A program made the translations under genes and the position numbers. Shown in pieces: positions 27,059 through 36,289 of a stretch of 37,085 nt of DNA. How positions within the stretch are numbered: position 1 is the first letter of the stretch; each line of letters opens with the position of its first letter. Source of the stretch: an uncultured Afifella sp. (GTDB taxonomy: Bacteria > Pseudomonadota > Alphaproteobacteria > Rhizobiales > Afifellaceae); assembly GCA_945787495.1 (NCBI GenBank), contig CALZIL010000002.1, forward strand, positions 1 through 37,085, given 5' to 3'. The notes under the pieces are model-generated. The model searched no databases. It was not told where the DNA came from and saw nothing but the letters and a program-made list of their open reading frames with translations.

Positions 27059-28366
27059 TCAGACATAGCGGTTGACGATGGCCTCCAGCAGCTCTTGCCG
27101 TCCGGAACGCGGCTGCGGGTCGAGCCCGTCGCGCAGCGCCCGCGCGGCGATTTCCTCCAGTGAGCGCTGGCCGGAAAGCATCGCTTGCGCCTCGACCTCC
27201 GACCAGCCCGCATAGCGCTCGTCCAGCGGAGCCTCCAGCGCGCGGTCCTCGATCATCCGCGCCGCCGCCTTAAGGCCGCGCGCGCAAGCATCCATGCCGG
27301 CGACATGGGCGTAGATCAGGTCGGCCGGGTCCAAAGACTGCCGGCGCAGCTTGGCGTCGAAATTGATTCCGCCGCTGGTAAAGCCGCCGGCCTTGAGGAT
27401 GTGGTGAAAGGCGACCGCCAGTTCAGGGACGTTCATCGGGAACTGGTCGGTGTCCCAACCCGATTGGTAGTCGTTCCGGTTCGCGTCCACCGAGCCAAGG
27501 ATCCCCAGCGCGGCGGCGGTGGCGATCTCATGCTCGAAGGCATGGCCGGCCAGAACCGCGTGTCCGACCTCGATATTCACTTTCACTTCGTTCTCAAGCC
27601 CGTAGCGCTTGAGGAATCCGTAAACCGTCGCCACGTCGTAGTCATATTGGTGCTTGGTCGGCTCCTGCGGTTTGGGTTCGACCAGGATTGCGCCCTTGAA
27701 ATCGATCCGGTGCTTGTGCTCGACCACCATCGACAGGAACCGGCCGAGCTGGTCGAATTCGCGTCCCATATCGGTGTTGAGCAACGTCTCGTAACCCTCG
27801 CGTCCGCCCCATAAAACGTAATTCGCGCCGTCGAGTTGTTTGGTGACATCCATCGCCTCCTTCACCTGCGCGGCGGCATAGGCGAACACATCGGGGTCCG
27901 GATTGGTGGCGGCGCCGGCCATATAGCGCCGGTGCGAGAACAGGTTGGCAGTGCCCCACAGCAGCCGGATTCCGGTCGCCGCCATCTTGTCGGCAAAGAC
28001 CTCCGCGATCTCGCGCAGATTGTGGTTCGCCTCGGCGAGGCTGGTGCCCTCCGGAGCGGCGTCGCGGTCATGGAAGCAGAAGAACGGCGCGCCGAGGATT
28101 GAGAACATCTCGAACGCCGCATCGGCCTTGGCGCGGGCCGCTGCCATCGTGTCGCCGAACCACGGGCGCTCGAAGGTCTGGCCGCCGAACGGGTCGTTTC
28201 CGGGCCAGACGAAATTGTGCCAGTAGCAGACAGCGAAGCGGAGATGGTCTTCCAGACGCTTGCCGAGGACGATCTCATCCCGGTCGTAGTGGCGGAAGGC
28301 CAACGGATTGTCGGATGCCGGCCCCTCGAAACGTGCCGGCGCGATGCCGTCGAAATAGCTGTTCAT
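27059..28366 (-). CDS. xylA: Xylose isomerase XylA
   Basis: XylA converts D-xylose to D-xylulose in the cytoplasm, using two divalent metals. The 435-residue product matches the longer (class II) isomerases in size. It has the catalytic FHDRD at 98-102 (His99, Asp102), [13 protein letters not shown] near 137-149, [16 protein letters not shown] near 184-199 and the metal-binding [17 protein letters not shown] near 228-244 with Glu230 and Lys232. [20 protein letters not shown] follows, then [11 protein letters not shown] at 28364-28366 overlaps the xylB stop by 4 bases. The same frame is open upstream to 28693, but that part is antisense-type noise within xylB. It is the last gene of the xylFHGBA operon. 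Confidence 0.98.
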
Positions 28367-29823
28367 GGGTTCATTGCCTCCCTGATCGCCGGATAGAGGG
28401 TCCGGTAGCGCGCATATCCGTCGTCGTATTGCTCGACGAGCGCCGGGTCGGGCTCGATCACCGCATCGATGGTCGGCGGGACGCAGACCTTGAACGGGTC
28501 GGCGCCAGTCGCCGCGCAGATCGCAAGCCGCGCTGCTCCGAAGGCGGCGCCGATATCGCCGGCCTCGGGAACTTCCAGCGGCCGATTCAGCGCCGAAGCG
28601 AGAATGCGCAGCCAAAGGCGCGAGCGGGCGCCGCCGCCGACCGCAACGGCGCTTTCGATCGCGGTTCCCGCCGCGGCGAGCGCGCCCAGGCAATCGCGAA
28701 ATGCATAGGCGACGCCTTCGAGCACCGCCTGGGTCGCCGCCGAGGCGTCAACGCCGTGATGAAGGCCGACCAAAGCCCCGCGCGCCTCAGCGTCGTTATG
28801 CGGCGTGCGCTCGCCGGAGAGATAGGGAAGGAAGATCACCGGCGATGGCGCCGTGACCGTCTCGCCCAGCGCCGCCGTCAATTCGGCCGGATCGCGGTTC
28901 AGCAGACCCGCCAGCCAGTTGAGGCTGTCGGTCGCCGACAGGATCACACCCATCTGGTGCCAGGTTTCCGGCACCGCGTGACAGAAGGCGTGCACCGCTC
29001 CTTCGGTATTGGGCGAGAACCGCGCATTGGAGACGAACAGAACGCCCGAAGTGCCGAGCGAGGCGAAGGCGCTGCCCGGCGCCAACGCCCCCATCCCGCA
29101 GGCCGAGGCGGCGTTGTCGCCGCCGCCCCCGGCAACCACCGGCGCTTTCGCCATGCCCCAGCGCGCCCGCAATTCGTCGCGCAGGACGCCCGCCGGCTCG
29201 GTGCCCTCGACCAGGTCCGGCATGTGCGACACGTCGAGCCCGGTCGCCGCCAGCATCGCATCCGACCAGCGCCGTCCGCCGACGTCGAGCCAGAGCGTGC
29301 CGGACGAGTCCGACATGTCGGAGACATGCGTGCCGGTCAGCCGCAGCCGGATGTAGTCCTTCGGCAGCAACACCTTGGCGAGGCGTGAAAAGACCTCCGG
29401 TTCATGCTTGCGCAGCCAGGCCAGCTTGGGCGCGGTGAAGCCCGGCATGGCGATGTTGCCGGTGATGGTCCGGCTCTCTGGACGCGCCTCCTCCAGCTCG
29501 GCACACTCTTTCGCCGAGCGGCCGTCATTCCACAGGATCGCCGGGCGCAGCGCCTCGCCGGCGGCATCCAGCAGGGTCGCGCCGTGCATCTGGCCCGACA
29601 GGCCGATGCCGGACACGGCCGCAATTTCAGCCGGGCGAGACGCCACCAGCGCGTCGATCGTCCGCTCACTCGCCTGCCACCAGTCGTCGGGATTCTGCTC
29701 TGACCAGCCCGGATGCGGGCGCGAGACCGCCAGCGGCTCGCTGGCGCTCGCAACGATATTCTGCGCATCGTCGACAAGCACCGTCTTCACCGAAGACGTG
29801 CCGATGTCGATCCCCAGATACAT
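28363..29823 (-). CDS. xylB: Xylulokinase XylB
   Basis: XylB phosphorylates D-xylulose with ATP to D-xylulose 5-phosphate, the entry to the pentose phosphate pathway. The 486-residue FGGY-family product begins [19 protein letters not shown] with the phosphate-binding loop. It has SGQMHG near 76-81 (substrate contact), WNDGRS near 98-103, [14 protein letters not shown] with Asp236 as probable catalytic base, [35 protein letters not shown] and the adenosine motif [21 protein letters not shown]. It lies 7 bases after the transporter ATPase gene and overlaps xylA by 4 bases. Confidence 0.98.
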
Positions 29824-29830
29824 GGCGCGG

Positions 29831-30613
<783 letters not shown>

Positions 30614-30624
30614 CCCGGTCTCCC

Positions 30625-31938
30625 TCATGCTGTCTTGCGGCGATAGACGATGTCGAGCCAGACGGCCAGAACCAGCACCGCGCCGACGACGATGGTTTGC
30701 AGCGGCGTGTCGAGCCCCATCAGCACCATGCCCGACTGCAGCGACTGCATGACCAGCGCCCCCAGCATGGCACCGGCGATCGTGCCGACGCCGCCGGAGA
30801 GCGAGGTGCCGCCGATCACCGCCGCAGCGATGGTGAAGAGCTCGTCCAGCGTGCCTTGCGCGTTGGTGGCCGCGTTCAGCCGCGCCGTCGAGATCGCCGA
30901 GGCGATGGCGCAGAGCACGCCCATCAGCATGAAGATCATCATTTTGACGCGCTTGGTGTTGACGCCGGCCAGGTCCGCCGCCTCGGGATTGCCGCCAATG
31001 GCGAAGACATAGCGTCCGAAGCGTGTACGGGTCGCGATGAAGGTCATGACGACGCCGACGGCGATGGCGATCAGCACCGGGATCGCCAGTCCGTGAGAGA
31101 TGAACAGTCCCTCCGGTGGTGCTTCGATGCCTTGCGCCTCGGCATAGCGCGCGGCGATGCGCTTGGGCCAGGGGTAACTGTTGGCAATCCAGATTGCAGC
31201 CAGCACAAATCCACAACCGATGCTGCCCAGTACGCCCTCGGCCCAGAGCGGACGCAGCGGGAATTTGAACCGGCGGCGCTGGCGGCGGCCATTCACCAGC
31301 ATGACGATGATGGCCGCACAGGTGACCAGGCCGACGCCCCAACTCGCAGCCGCCCCGATCGAACCCTCGGTGCCGCCGCCGATCAGCCGGAAAGTCGAGT
31401 CCATCGGCGCGACGGTGCGCCCGGACGTGACCCACCATGCCGCGCCGCGCCAGACCAGCAGGCCGCCGAGTGTGACGATAAAGGCCGGGACGCCGAGATA
31501 GGCGATGACGTAGCCATGCAGCGCGCCGATCGCGGCGCCGACGAGTATGCCGAACGCCAAAGCAAGGAGCCAGGTCGCACCGTGGTCGAAGCCGATCAGG
31601 CCGGGCAGGAACTCGGCCTGGAACACGCCCATCAGCATGCCGATCACGCCGAGCACCGACCCCACCGAAAGGTCGATATTGCGGGTGACGATCACCAGCA
31701 CCATCCCCGTCGACATGACGGCGATCGAGGCTGTCTGAACGGAAAGATTCCACAGGTTTCTCGGCGTGAGAAACACCCCGCCCGAGGCGATGTGGAAGCC
31801 AATCCAGATCACCGCCAGCGCGCCGATCATGCCCAGCATGCGGGTGTCGATCTCGGTCGCTTCAAGGAAGCGCCCAATCGGTCCCGGGGTAATCTCCCGC
31901 GCCCCGCTCACGGGGGCAGACGCCGTGTGGTCGGTCAT
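30625..31938 (-). CDS. xylH: Xylose ABC transporter permease XylH
   Basis: This is the membrane component of the sugar importer. The 437-residue product has roughly ten or more hydrophobic segments and the BPD_transp_2 features of the ribose/xylose class: [62 protein letters not shown] and [24 protein letters not shown] hydrophilic insert around residues 210-270 is typical of XylH rather than RbsC. ATG at 31936-31938 is preferred over the TTG just upstream (31941). It follows xylF across a 73-base gap that contains a strong hairpin, and its stop is 12-15 bases from xylG. Confidence 0.95.
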
Positions 31939-32011: not shown

Positions 32012-33052
32012 TCAGTTGCAAACGCCCGCGGCTCCGGCCGGGACGCCCTGGCACACCACGTCTTTTGCCACCCAACCGGCGTCGATCACGACATTCAAAT
32101 TGTCGCGGGTGATCGGCAGCGGCTTGAGGAAGATCGAGGTCATCTCGACGCCCTTGGGCCCGCCGGACCACTTCTCCGCGCCCTTGATGTCGGCCATCTT
32201 CGAGCCCTTGGCCAGGGCGACGGCGATTTCGCCGGCGGCCCGTCCGAGATTGCGCGCGTCCTTCCATACAGACACCGTCTGACTTCCGAGCGCGACACGA
32301 TTCAGCGCCGCGTGGTCGCCATCCTGGCCTGAAACCGGCACCGAGCCCGCGAGACCCTGCGCCGTCAGCGCCGCCACGACACCGCCCGCAGTACCGTCAT
32401 TGGAGGCAACCACTGCATCGACCTCGTTGTTGTTGGCGGTCAGGAGCTGCTCCATGTTCTTCTGGGCATTGGCCGGCAGCCAGCCGTCGGTGTAAGCCTC
32501 ACCGACATTCTTGACCTTGCCTGCGTCCATCGCCTCCTTCAGCACCTCCATCTGGCCCGAGAACAGGAAATCCGCGTTCGGATCCGCCGCCGACCCCTTG
32601 ATGAAGACATAGCGGCCTTCAGGTTGCGCCTTTAAGACCGCGCGGGCCTGCATCCGGCCGACCTCCTTGTTGTCGAAAGTCAGATAAAAGACGTCCTGGC
32701 TCTCGATCAAACGGTCGTAGCCAACAACCGGAATCCCCTCATCAACCGCCTTTTGCACGGCGGGACCAATCGCGTCGGCGTCCTGCGCGAGAATAATCAG
32801 CGCATTGGCGCCGTTGGCGATCAAACTCTCGACGTCGGTGAGTTGCTTGGCCGCCGAGGATTGCGCGTCGGCGGAAATATACTTTGCGCCCGCGGCCTCC
32901 AGGGCGCCCTTGATCGCGGCCTCATCGGTTTTCCAGCGCTCCTCCTGGAAGTTCGACCACGATACGCCGACCGTGATGTCCTGTGCGAAAGCCACTGTGG
33001 ACATTGCCAGTGCAAAAACGCCGCCAGCAAAAGCGAGTGCGAGTCTCTTCAT
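32012..33052 (-). CDS. xylF: D-xylose-binding periplasmic protein XylF
   Basis: XylF captures D-xylose in the periplasm for XylHG. The 346-residue product has a signal peptide ([20 protein letters not shown], cleavage after AFA near residue 23) and the Peripla_BP_4 fold. Visible elements are [95 protein letters not shown] and [13 protein letters not shown], with the pattern of xylose-binding proteins. ATG at 33050-33052 has AGGGAG 6-7 bases upstream and starts the signal peptide. The frame is open back to 33295, but that extension overlaps the divergent gene. It is the first gene of the operon; the promoter must lie in the 187 bases before it. Confidence 0.96.
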
Positions 33053-33128: not shown

Positions 33129-33159
33129 TTGATGAGCCTGTTTTTCCGGGGCTCAAGAA
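33129..33159. promoter_or_regulatory. Inverted repeat in the xylF / di-heme gene divergent region
   Basis: TTGATGAGCC (33129-33138) and GGCTCAAGAA (33150-33159) match as inverted arms at 8 of 10 positions around 11 bases. A second, smaller one (TTGA-N9-TCAA) lies near 33173-33190. Either could be an operator shared by the two divergent units. No xylR-type regulator gene is in the window and no clear promoter could be assigned. Confidence 0.3.
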
Positions 33160-33239
33160 AATTCGTGACACGTTTGACGAGGTGTATCAACTTTTCCAAC
33201 AACCGCGCTCGGGTGCTGCGCGAATTGCGGCGCGGCCCG

Positions 33240-34661
33240 ATGACAGGACGGGCACTCATATGCGCCGCGGCCGTGGCGACTTTGGCGCTAGTCACCGCGT
33301 CCCGCGCCCAGGAGGCGCCATGGAGCGAGCAAGCCGTTCAACGTCACCTCGACTTCGACACCGTTGCGGCCGAGGTCGCTGCCATTGGCCCGGCAGCGCT
33401 GATCGCCCAGGGCGAGCGGCTGTTCACGGCGAAATTCACCCGCTTCGACGGTGTCGGCCGGCCGATGGCGACGCAGGCGAGCATCCCGACCAAGCGCCGC
33501 CGGCCCGCCCAATCGGCATTTGTCCGCACCAGCGGTCCCGACGCAAACGCCTGCGTCTCCTGCCACGCCGACCCCTCGCCCGGCGGCGCCGGCGACTTCA
33601 CAGTCAATGCCTTCGTCTCCGAGGGCTTCACCAGCGCCGAGTTCGACAGCCTCGACCCGCAATTCTCAAACGAGCGCGGCACGACCGCGCTGTTCGGCGC
33701 CGGCCTTATCGAGCTGCTCGCCCGCGAAATGACCACCGAGCTTCAGGCACAGCGCAGCGCGGCGCTGTCGGCGGCACGCACCACCGGCAAACCGGTTTCG
33801 GCGGCCCTGTCGACAAAGGGTGTCGGTTTCGGCGCGCTGACCGCAGCGGCGGACGGGGCCGTCGACCTTTCGGGCGTTCAGGGTGTGGACCCGGATCTGG
33901 TGATCCGGCCGTTCGGGCAGAAAGGCGTCTCGGTCTCGCTGCGGCAGTTCACCGTCAGCGCCGCGAACGCCCATCACGGCATTCAGGCGGAGGAGCGTTT
34001 CGGTGCGCGCTGGACCGGCGAGGCGGATTTCGACGAGGACGGGGTTGCCGCCGAGCTGACAGCCGGCGACGTCTCGGCGCTGGTCGCATTTCAGGCCGCG
34101 CTGGCTCCACCGGACCGGTTTGCACCGTCGGATAAAAGCTGGCGAGCCGCGGCCGACGCCGGAGCAACTTTGTTCGAGCGGTGGGGATGCGCCGATTGTC
34201 ACCGGCGCGCTTTGCCGCTGACCGGCTTGCGCTTCGCCGATCCGGGCCCCTACGACACCGCCGGCACATTGCGCGCCGCTGATGTTGGCGCCGCCATCAT
34301 TCTCGATCTTGGCGCACTCGACTGGGTGGCGAAGCTGCCTCGCAATGCGGCTGGTGACGTTCTGGTGCCGCTGTTCGGCGATTTAAAGCGCCATGTGATC
34401 GCCGACGCCGCCGTTTCGGCCTTCGGCAACGAATTGCTGGCGCAGAATTTCGTCGAGCGGAACATGTTCATGACCGCCGAACTTTGGGGCGTCGCCGCCA
34501 CGGCTCCTTATGGCCATCGCGGCGACATGACCGTGCTCGACGAGGCCATCCGCGCCCATGGCGGCGAAGGGCGCGCGTCGCGCGACCGCTACGTCGAAGC
34601 GCCCGATGCGTCGCGCGCCGAACTCGTCGCCTTTCTAAGAACGATGGGAGCAGCGCAATGA
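33240..34661 (+). CDS. Exported di-heme c-type cytochrome, DUF1111 / di-haem oxidoreductase family
   Basis: The 473-residue product has a signal peptide ([20 protein letters not shown], cleavage near residue 23) and two heme c sites, CVSCH at 105-109 and CADCH at 317-321, so it should be a periplasmic two-heme protein. The C-terminal half carries the DUF1111 (PF06537, putative thiol oxidoreductase) hallmarks: [14 protein letters not shown] with His385, [20 protein letters not shown] with His426, and [19 protein letters not shown]. Relatives are often found beside imelysins in iron uptake loci, but no imelysin is here. ATG at 33240 opens the signal peptide, and the upstream open frame overlaps xylF. 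It overlaps the next gene by 4 bases (ATGA at 34658-34661), so the two products probably act together. The substrate is unknown. Confidence 0.92.
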
Positions 34662-36289
34662 AATTCGCCGCCGGCCTCGCCCTGCTCGCCGCTGCCTCTC
34701 CCGCGATGGCAGGCGAAGCGCCGCGCGCCATTTTGCACGCGCCCCATTTTGTCGAAGAAGCCGCGGCGGCCGGAGTCGCGCATGTCTATGACGGCCCATG
34801 GGAGCATTTCGTCGGTGGCGGCGTGGCGGCATTCGACTGCAATGGCGACCGCAAGCCTGATCTGGCCCTTGCCGGCGGCAAATCCCCCGTGCGGTTGTTC
34901 GTCAATCACAGCCAGGCCGGCGGCGCTTTGAAGTTCGATGAACGCGACACGGGATTGAGCGACAAGGACCGCGCCGGTGCGCTCGGCCTCTACCCGCTCG
35001 ACATCGACGACGATGGCCATCCGGACCTCGTTTTGCTCCGCGTCGGCCGCAACCTGCTGCTGAAGGGTGGACCGGATTGCACGTTCCAGAAGGCCAACCG
35101 GGCCTGGGCCTTTGATGGCGGCCGAGCCTGGACGACTGCCTTCGCGGCAACCTGGGAACCGGACGCCGCCTTCCCAACCCTTGCTTTTGGAAACTATGTC
35201 GACCGCAGCGCGCCCGGCTCGCCCTGGGGCACATGCGACGATAACGTCCTGCTTCGCCCCTCACCCGGCCAGACGCCGCGTTACGACCAGTTGACCGCGC
35301 TCACGCCCGGTCATTGCGCCTTGTCGATGCTGTTCACCGATTGGAACCGCTCGGGCGAGCCTTCGCTGCGCATCGCCAACGACCGCCAATATCATCTCGA
35401 CGGCGAGGAGCAGCTCTGGCGGGTCCCGCCAGGACGGGCGCCGCGGCTTTACGCGCGCTCGGACGGCTGGGAGCGCCTCAAGATCTGGGGCATGGGTATC
35501 GCCGAGGCTGATCTCAATGCCGACGGCTATCCCGAATACGCTCTGACCTCGATGGGCGACACCAAGCTCCAGCGCCTCGACGAGGAGGCCGAAGAGGGGC
35601 GCCCGGCCTATCGCGATATCGCTTTTGAGAAGGGCGCGACCGCGCACCGGCCCTATATCGGTGGCGACCGCCGCCCGTCGACCGGCTGGCACGCCGAATT
35701 TGCCGATTTCGACAATGACGGTCTGCTCGACCTGTTCATCGCCAAGGGCAATGTCGAGGCGATGCCCGACTTTTCCGCCTACGATCCGGATAATCTGCTG
35801 TTGGGACAGCGGGACGGCGGCTTCGTCGAGGCCGGCGATACGGCCGGGATCGCCCTGGACCGGCGTGGCCGCGGCGGCGCCATTGCCGATTTCAACGTTG
35901 ACGGCATGCTGGACCTTGCGGTGGTGAACCGCGGCGATCCGGTCAGCCTGTTCCGCAATCTCGGCAACCGGGCGGCGCATGGTCCGCGCCCGCTCGGCAA
36001 CTGGCTGGCCGTCGAATTGCGCCAGCCATCGCCGAACCGGAGCGCCGTTGGCGCACGGGTTTCGGTGCGCGTCGGCAACCGGACATTGGCGCGGACCGTT
36101 CAGACCGGCGGGGGCCACGCCTCAGGCCGCACCGGCTGGGTGCACCTGGGTCTTGGAACCGCCGAGCGCGCGCAGATCCGCGTGCAGTGGCCCGACGGCG
36201 AGTGGAGCCACGCCTACCGCGCCTTCGCCAACAACTTCGTCATCATCGACCGGGTTGAGGCCGAAGTCCGCTACTGGTACCCCGACTGA
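34658..36289 (+). CDS. Exported FG-GAP/VCBS repeat protein with ASPIC-UnbV domain (CRTAC1-like)
   Basis: The 543-residue product has a signal peptide ([20 protein letters not shown], cleavage after AMA). It has at least six FG-GAP type units with calcium-loop motifs, such as FDCNGDRKPDLALAGG, LDIDDDGHPDLVLLRVG, ADLNADGYPEYALTSMG, ADFDNDGLLDLFIAKG and ADFNVDGMLDLAVVNRG. The C-terminal ASPIC/UnbV domain (NWLAVELRQPSPNRSAVGAR, then VQTGGGHASG and IRVQWPDGEW) completes the CRTAC1 layout. The repeats suggest a seven-bladed propeller binding calcium in the periplasm or outside the cell. The enzyme activity, if any, is unknown. Translational overlap with the di-heme cytochrome suggests a partner or substrate-presenting role, which is inference. 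Confidence 0.92.
   Translation: MKFAAGLALLAAASPAMAGEAPRAILHAPHFVEEAAAAGVAHVYDGPWEHFVGGGVAAFDCNGDRKPDLALAGGKSPVRLFVNHSQAGGALKFDERDTGLSDKDRAGALGLYPLDIDDDGHPDLVLLRVGRNLLLKGGPDCTFQKANRAWAFDGGRAWTTAFAATWEPDAAFPTLAFGNYVDRSAPGSPWGTCDDNVLLRPSPGQTPRYDQLTALTPGHCALSMLFTDWNRSGEPSLRIANDRQYHLDGEEQLWRVPPGRAPRLYARSDGWERLKIWGMGIAEADLNADGYPEYALTSMGDTKLQRLDEEAEEGRPAYRDIAFEKGATAHRPYIGGDRRPSTGWHAEFADFDNDGLLDLFIAKGNVEAMPDFSAYDPDNLLLGQRDGGFVEAGDTAGIALDRRGRGGAIADFNVDGMLDLAVVNRGDPVSLFRNLGNRAAHGPRPLGNWLAVELRQPSPNRSAVGARVSVRVGNRTLARTVQTGGGHASGRTGWVHLGLGTAERAQIRVQWPDGEWSHAYRAFANNFVIIDRVEAEVRYWYPD

Follow-up and report, generated by a model that had tools for sequence, protein, structure and literature searches.

An exported di-haem protein and an ASPIC propeller protein encoded beside xylose uptake genes: a possible peroxide-using step in sugar use

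The gene pair and the systems closest to it

ASPIC/UnbV proteins of the CRTAC1 family are widespread and, to our knowledge, have no settled role in bacteria. The nearest parallel in the literature searched to the locus described here is found in hydrazine-synthase-like clusters, where a CRTAC1-family gene lies near the gene for a CCP/MauG-type di-haem subunit (PMC12758564); in those clusters the alpha and beta-gamma genes flank the CRTAC1 gene, whereas the present locus has no alpha subunit and its context is sugar uptake. The DUF1111/DHOR family (PF06537), whose members often accompany imelysins (PMC3143127), has in common with the di-haem protein of this locus a C-terminal signature, two CXXCH motifs and a score over the Pfam cut-off, but the present locus lies in a sugar regulon, lacks an imelysin and pairs the di-haem protein with an ASPIC propeller. 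Like the di-haem proteins of the MauG/methylamine dehydrogenase and MbnH/MbnP systems, it has the CCP/MauG fold, is exported and is encoded beside a dedicated exported partner; the differences are that this partner is a CRTAC1-type propeller and that the di-haem protein is exchangeable with a haloperoxidase relative. The propeller protein shares its FG-GAP propeller and ASPIC domain with cartilage acidic protein 1 (CRTAC1) and bacterial members of that family, and differs from CRTAC1 in being bacterial, paired with a peroxidase, tied to xylF and furnished with additional conserved residues (Cys, Trp, His and Arg). It also belongs with aldos-2-ulose dehydratase (AUDH), which acts on keto-sugars, in the VCBS propeller superfamily, but that likeness is at the level of the fold only, other propellers score equally well and the ASPIC protein lacks cupin domains.

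The window, by which we mean the whole stretch of 37,085 nucleotides analysed from an uncultured Afifella sp., contains the following features at this locus.

DHOR, 33240-34661, plus strand: 473 aa, di-haem protein predicted to be exported, from the DUF1111/DHOR branch of the CCP/MauG superfamily
ASPIC, 34658-36289, plus strand: 543 aa, predicted exported FG-GAP/ASPIC (CRTAC1-family) propeller protein
xylF, 32012-33052, minus strand: xylose ABC transporter binding protein, orthologue of XylF of the reference locus L052
xylH, 30625-31938, minus strand: ABC permease (PF02653), clusters with the L052 permease
xylG, 29831-30613, minus strand: single-cassette ABC ATPase, 83% match to the xylG cluster of relatives
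xylB, 28363-29823, minus strand: xylulokinase, clusters with the L052 FGGY kinase
xylA, 27059-28366, minus strand: xylose isomerase, clusters with L052 XylA
Palindromic operator-like site GTTTTTCCGGGGCTCAAGAAAA, 33140-33161, no strand: inside the shared xylF-DHOR region
Putative ROK/XylR repressor gene vestige, 33174-33239, plus strand: in frame with DHOR, resembling the N-terminus of the ROK proteins of relatives

In the reference locus, XylF and XylA score above the NCBI equivalog cut-offs of TIGR02634 and TIGR02630, respectively. The DHOR and ASPIC genes lie on the same strand and overlap by ATGA, and exactly 187 bases separate xylF from DHOR, so that both the overlap and the gap to the divergent xylose operon described in the initial annotation were confirmed. 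Its claim that both proteins are exported was borne out by a Sec-type signal peptide at each N-terminus, as judged by eye. A phosphofructokinase-family gene (PF00365, 36412-37083) begins on the same strand 122 bases past ASPIC.

Domains and modelled folds of the two proteins

The CXXCH motifs of DHOR number exactly two (residues 105 and 317), and the protein matches PF06537 with 32.7 bits, the cut-off being 22, in agreement with the two motifs and the DUF1111 signature first read from the sequence. This match spans only the last ~67 of the 499 profile positions; all 42 of the 42 aligned relatives also match the profile (E 0.001), and both CXXCH motifs, His245, His385, Trp416, His426 and His440 are invariant among them. 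An AF2 model of DHOR (pLDDT 82.9, with residues 118-144 at low confidence) was compared with solved structures by VIA-align, giving Z scores of 16.8 for MauG solved with its substrate protein (3rlm), 16.8 for hydrazine synthase gamma (5c2v_C), in line with the literature parallel above, 16.4 for the CCP of P. aeruginosa, 15.9 for MbnH (6e1c) and 14.1 for BthA. The two c-type haem motifs and the modelled di-haem fold place DHOR, as a prediction, in the CCP/MauG di-haem superfamily. When DHOR was aligned by hhalign with the CCP-type partner described below, only the C-terminal haem half aligned, without the peroxidatic half and the interhaem Trp, and the invariant Glu163 is, by our own reading, a candidate distal Glu. 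Both di-haem types, DHOR and CCP_MauG, have an invariant His where the aligned MacA sequence has Met, and the alignment suggests that the second haem may be bis-His in both, like that reported for hydrazine synthase gamma. DHOR falls far below the equivalog cut-offs for MauG (TIGR03791, 22.1 against 443.85 bits) and MbnH (TIGR04039, 18.5 against 362.85 bits), which rules out filing it as either protein, although a similar way of working is possible.

The ASPIC/UnbV domain of the second protein was upheld by a UnbV_ASPIC match of 42.7 bits, above the cut-off, and FG-GAP_3 matches four stretches, also above its cut-off, at 65.1 bits. Five DxDxDG-like calcium loops were located at residues 115, 228, 285, 350 and 411, that at 228 being degenerate, with one additional looser loop at residue 60; because there are five such loops plus a looser one, the earlier count of six or more calcium-type FG-GAP units is fair for the six but not for the "or more". 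The AF2 model (pLDDT 93.5) comprises a propeller and an ASPIC domain and aligns with CRTAC1 (9etn) at Z 37.3 across 455 residues, and the FG-GAP repeats together with the C-terminal UnbV_ASPIC domain assign the protein, by profile and model, to the ASPIC/CRTAC1 family. The second Foldseek match was AUDH (4a7y, E 2.7e-8, VIA Z 23.7), a likeness that is a lead and no test because many propellers score alike. Near-invariant polar and aromatic residues are numerous outside the calcium loops, and conservation exceeds 90% for seven Trp and stands at 98% for four Cys.

Conserved linkage of the pair to the xylose genes

The survey set consisted of 249 genomes of the order, most of them drafts, among which a DHOR orthologue was found in 29 and an ASPIC orthologue in 53. 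ASPIC is present in 28 of the 29 DHOR genomes, and a contig end cuts the locus in the 29th. A search of these genomes for adjacent DUF1111 and ASPIC genes, of the kind proposed with the initial annotation, found the two as neighbours on the same strand in 26 of the 28 genomes that have both; in the other two (G051 and G153) they are on different contigs, and they are thus adjacent in 26/26 genomes in which they share one. The 4-base overlap is kept in 28 of 38 loci, as ATGA in 26 and GTGA in 2, which is more than chance, and in one contig labelled Inquilinus (L072) the two are naturally fused with no stop between them, this being a single metagenome contig that ends inside ASPIC. Across 21 loci, the pairwise distances of DHOR and ASPIC are correlated (r 0.90), and the partial correlation of 0.87 after removing XylF was matched in 0 of 999 permutations. 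DHOR and ASPIC therefore co-diverge beyond XylF.

Whether the neighbouring xylose operon reflected a link or chance had at first been left undecided. XylF is present in 51 of the 53 ASPIC genomes, compared to 27 of the 196 others (Fisher p 1.6e-30), and the two genes lie within ~4 kb of each other in 43 of those 51 genomes and on separate contigs in the remaining 8. These counts indicate a conserved link and rule out chance neighbourhood. When the neighbours in 30 loci were clustered, those that recurred were the xyl genes and a ROK-family regulator. A phylum-wide sample added 13 newly met genomes, 12 of which have ASPIC at a xyl locus, including a case from another class with xylB-A-F-H-G-ASPIC-haloperoxidase in a single run on one strand. 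Gene order differs among loci, with the ASPIC gene divergent, behind xylG, or between xylA and xylF, and since the link persists while the order varies, it survives rearrangement. On this conserved xylF linkage, the pair fits the Xylose (XylFHG) regulon. Named examples from a plasmid collection are Phaeobacter inhibens 2.10 and Ruegeria sp. TM1040. In Ruegeria pomeroyi, xylFGH serves the uptake of glucose as well as xylose (PMC10130141), and because some XylF transporters also carry glucose, "aldose" is a safer term than "xylose" for the sugar concerned. In several loci (L141 11806-12864, L129, L172 and L174), and in Phaeobacter among others, the gene next to that for CCP_MauG encodes an aldose epimerase, which may be a further hint of aldose chemistry.

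De novo motif discovery upstream of xylF yielded a palindrome, about TTTtTTTgaagcttcAAAaAAA, in loci of every partner type, with a strong site in 34 of 46 loci, the window genome not being counted. With a matrix trained on these 34 other loci and the window genome left out, the site at 33140-33161 scored 16.1 bits, the highest in the whole 37-kb window and reached by 4 of 2000 shuffles of the region. This candidate operator, lying between xylF and the pair and putatively shared by them, would fit a xylose regulon. The same matrix scan found no such operator upstream of four relocated pairs (G105, G069, G009 and G034) and an 8.6-bit site ~100 bp upstream of DHOR in another (L096).

In relatives, a ROK-family repressor gene stands between xylF and DHOR. 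There is moderate evidence, from a short match, that this ROK/XylR repressor gene was deleted in the lineage of the window, leaving a stub joined to DHOR in the same reading frame. Strain L065, nearly identical at 99%, retains 91 bases (L065 2218-2308) that are absent from the window, so that the loss is seen in two assemblies. No orthologue of the repressor was found elsewhere in the window assembly, where the only ROK match was at 25%. The initial annotation of the 187 bases as a shared control region is thus supported by the operator-like site inside it, but the arrangement is probably not ancestral, the ROK gene having apparently been deleted. The operator-like site persists in the window although the repressor gene appears to be lost.

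Exchange of the peroxidase partner and possible functions

ASPIC is partnered here by a DUF1111 protein; other clades have a CCP_MauG di-haem protein in this place, and yet another clade has a relative of vanadium haloperoxidases. For the CCP_MauG partner of Phaeobacter the best solved relative is MbnH (1.7e-25), while the haloperoxidase relative (PAP2) matches that of Zobellia (4cit) at E 7.9e-79 and retains the vanadate-site stretches; it shares the PAP2 superfamily with phosphatases and could be one. On a quick tree of ASPIC, partner type tracks the tree with 5 changes, compared to a shuffled mean of 23.7. Twelve loci (L089, L125-127, L131-133, L140, L142, L176, L178 and L180) have ASPIC without an adjacent peroxidase, and the partner may therefore be dispensable or encoded elsewhere. 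Because DHOR is replaced by other peroxidase types, it is the propeller that stays constant and the peroxidase that is exchanged. Of the two-component redox system first proposed, an exported redox-type module without imelysin stands, but a fixed pair does not, DHOR being one of three partner types, and the suggestion of a thiol as its substrate found no support.

This exchange of peroxidase-type partners favours a step that depends on peroxide and takes place on the incoming aldose or next to it. Building on the gene association, regulon context, fold and partner exchange established above, we consider it quite possible, while stopping short of calling it probable, that the pair is the part of an aldose-uptake regulon (for xylose and, in some species, glucose) that makes an exported, peroxide-linked redox module. 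The ASPIC propeller would face the sugar, encountering in the periplasm the aldose or something closely derived from it, and DHOR would serve the propeller as redox partner by using H2O2 or accepting electrons, the two jointly performing an oxidation step coupled to the arrival of the sugar. On this explanation the kind of peroxidase could change because it is peroxide chemistry beside the propeller that matters and not a particular haem fold.

Several other readings share part of this evidence. DHOR might act in the manner of MauG or MbnH and, with H2O2, convert a residue of ASPIC into a protein-derived cofactor or metal site, after which matured ASPIC would act alone on the sugar. The fold matches of DHOR to MauG with its substrate protein and to MbnH, the relationship of the Phaeobacter partner to MbnH, the adjacency with one fusion, and the highly conserved Trp and Cys residues of ASPIC are all consistent with such maturation; yet a haloperoxidase relative replacing the di-haem protein in one clade would be odd for a site-specific modifier and speaks against a purely MauG-like modification, the MauG and MbnH equivalog cut-offs are far off, and several loci have no partner at all, so we regard this reading as rather doubtful. 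It is unlikely that the peroxidases instead clear H2O2 or other oxidants that arise from rapid sugar respiration or would harm the transporter, with ASPIC as a calcium-stabilised scaffold or sensor. All the exchangeable partners are peroxidase types, CRTAC1-type propellers frequently have binding roles, and absence of the peroxidase from some loci would suit an auxiliary, but protection leaves unexplained both why the propeller rather than the peroxidase is tied to xylF and why ASPIC has so many invariant polar and aromatic residues, and a haloperoxidase is a poor scavenger.

An LPMO-like role, in which oxidative attack on sugar-bearing polymers or oligomers would free aldoses for XylFHG, could account for exported peroxidases and a carbohydrate-superfamily propeller beside aldose uptake, but it seems very improbable given that the clusters show no recurrent glycoside hydrolase or polymer-binding domain and that the periplasm, where c-type haem proteins mature, is away from polymers. 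The frequent company of DUF1111 proteins and imelysins is what would recommend a known imelysin-type iron locus, or else mere chance neighbours. A genome-wide search for imelysin (PF09375) gave 0 matches in the window genome, whose assembly is 95% complete, which agrees with the initial view that the pair is not of this type and rules out an imelysin/EfeB-type iron locus; with the linkage to XylF and the conserved overlap also against it, this reading is barely credible.

Returning to a redox module acting with aldose uptake, one can go further and suppose that xylose-linked ASPIC is a new kind of exported sugar-transforming enzyme working with the adjacent peroxidase, for which three peroxidase types, two of them non-homologous, would have been recruited, and that this enzyme, whether an oxidase, a dehydrogenase or an enzyme of keto-sugars, would carry a metal or a protein-derived cofactor; we think this somewhat unlikely as a whole. 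If true, bacterial CRTAC1 proteins would have a defined function, and the use of xylose and glucose would include a periplasmic step not recognised before. If the module does act on sugar, many marine and soil Alphaproteobacteria run the textbook XylFHG-XylAB pathway with a periplasmic redox step that has gone unrecognised. In the literature searched, which lay mostly outside subscription journals, no relevant description linking ASPIC to DUF1111, xylose or haloperoxidase was found. The conservation of the module across many Proteobacteria, with its haem enzyme exchanged for other kinds of peroxidase in some lineages, suggests that sugar use includes a step, so far undescribed, that uses peroxide. 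Because this clade of ASPIC proteins is tied to peroxidases and to a well-understood sugar regulon, and this in species that are in culture, Phaeobacter inhibens among them, its function is directly testable, and three peroxidase types swapped around one propeller amount to a natural experiment on the purpose of di-haem enzymes.

Relatives of the pair also occur in other settings. In Pelagibius (L060 3456-7668), the pair lies away from the xyl genes, divergent from a MauG-like/SCO1/SBP56 (methanethiol-oxidase-type) cluster and with an IclR regulator. Tandem, four-haem DHOR proteins are encoded in an unclassified bacterial MAG (L074 6339-9356) and a Planctomycetota MAG (L075 6411-9347), the former with an ASPIC gene ~1 kb upstream of the double DHOR together with genes for a sigma-54 regulator and for a protein of outer-membrane type (Phenol_MetA_deg). 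In Pseudoalteromonas luteoviolacea (L080/L081 938-9671), a distant DHOR (31%) stands beside genes for a LodA-type quinoprotein oxidase and for halogenase-like and ferritin-like proteins.
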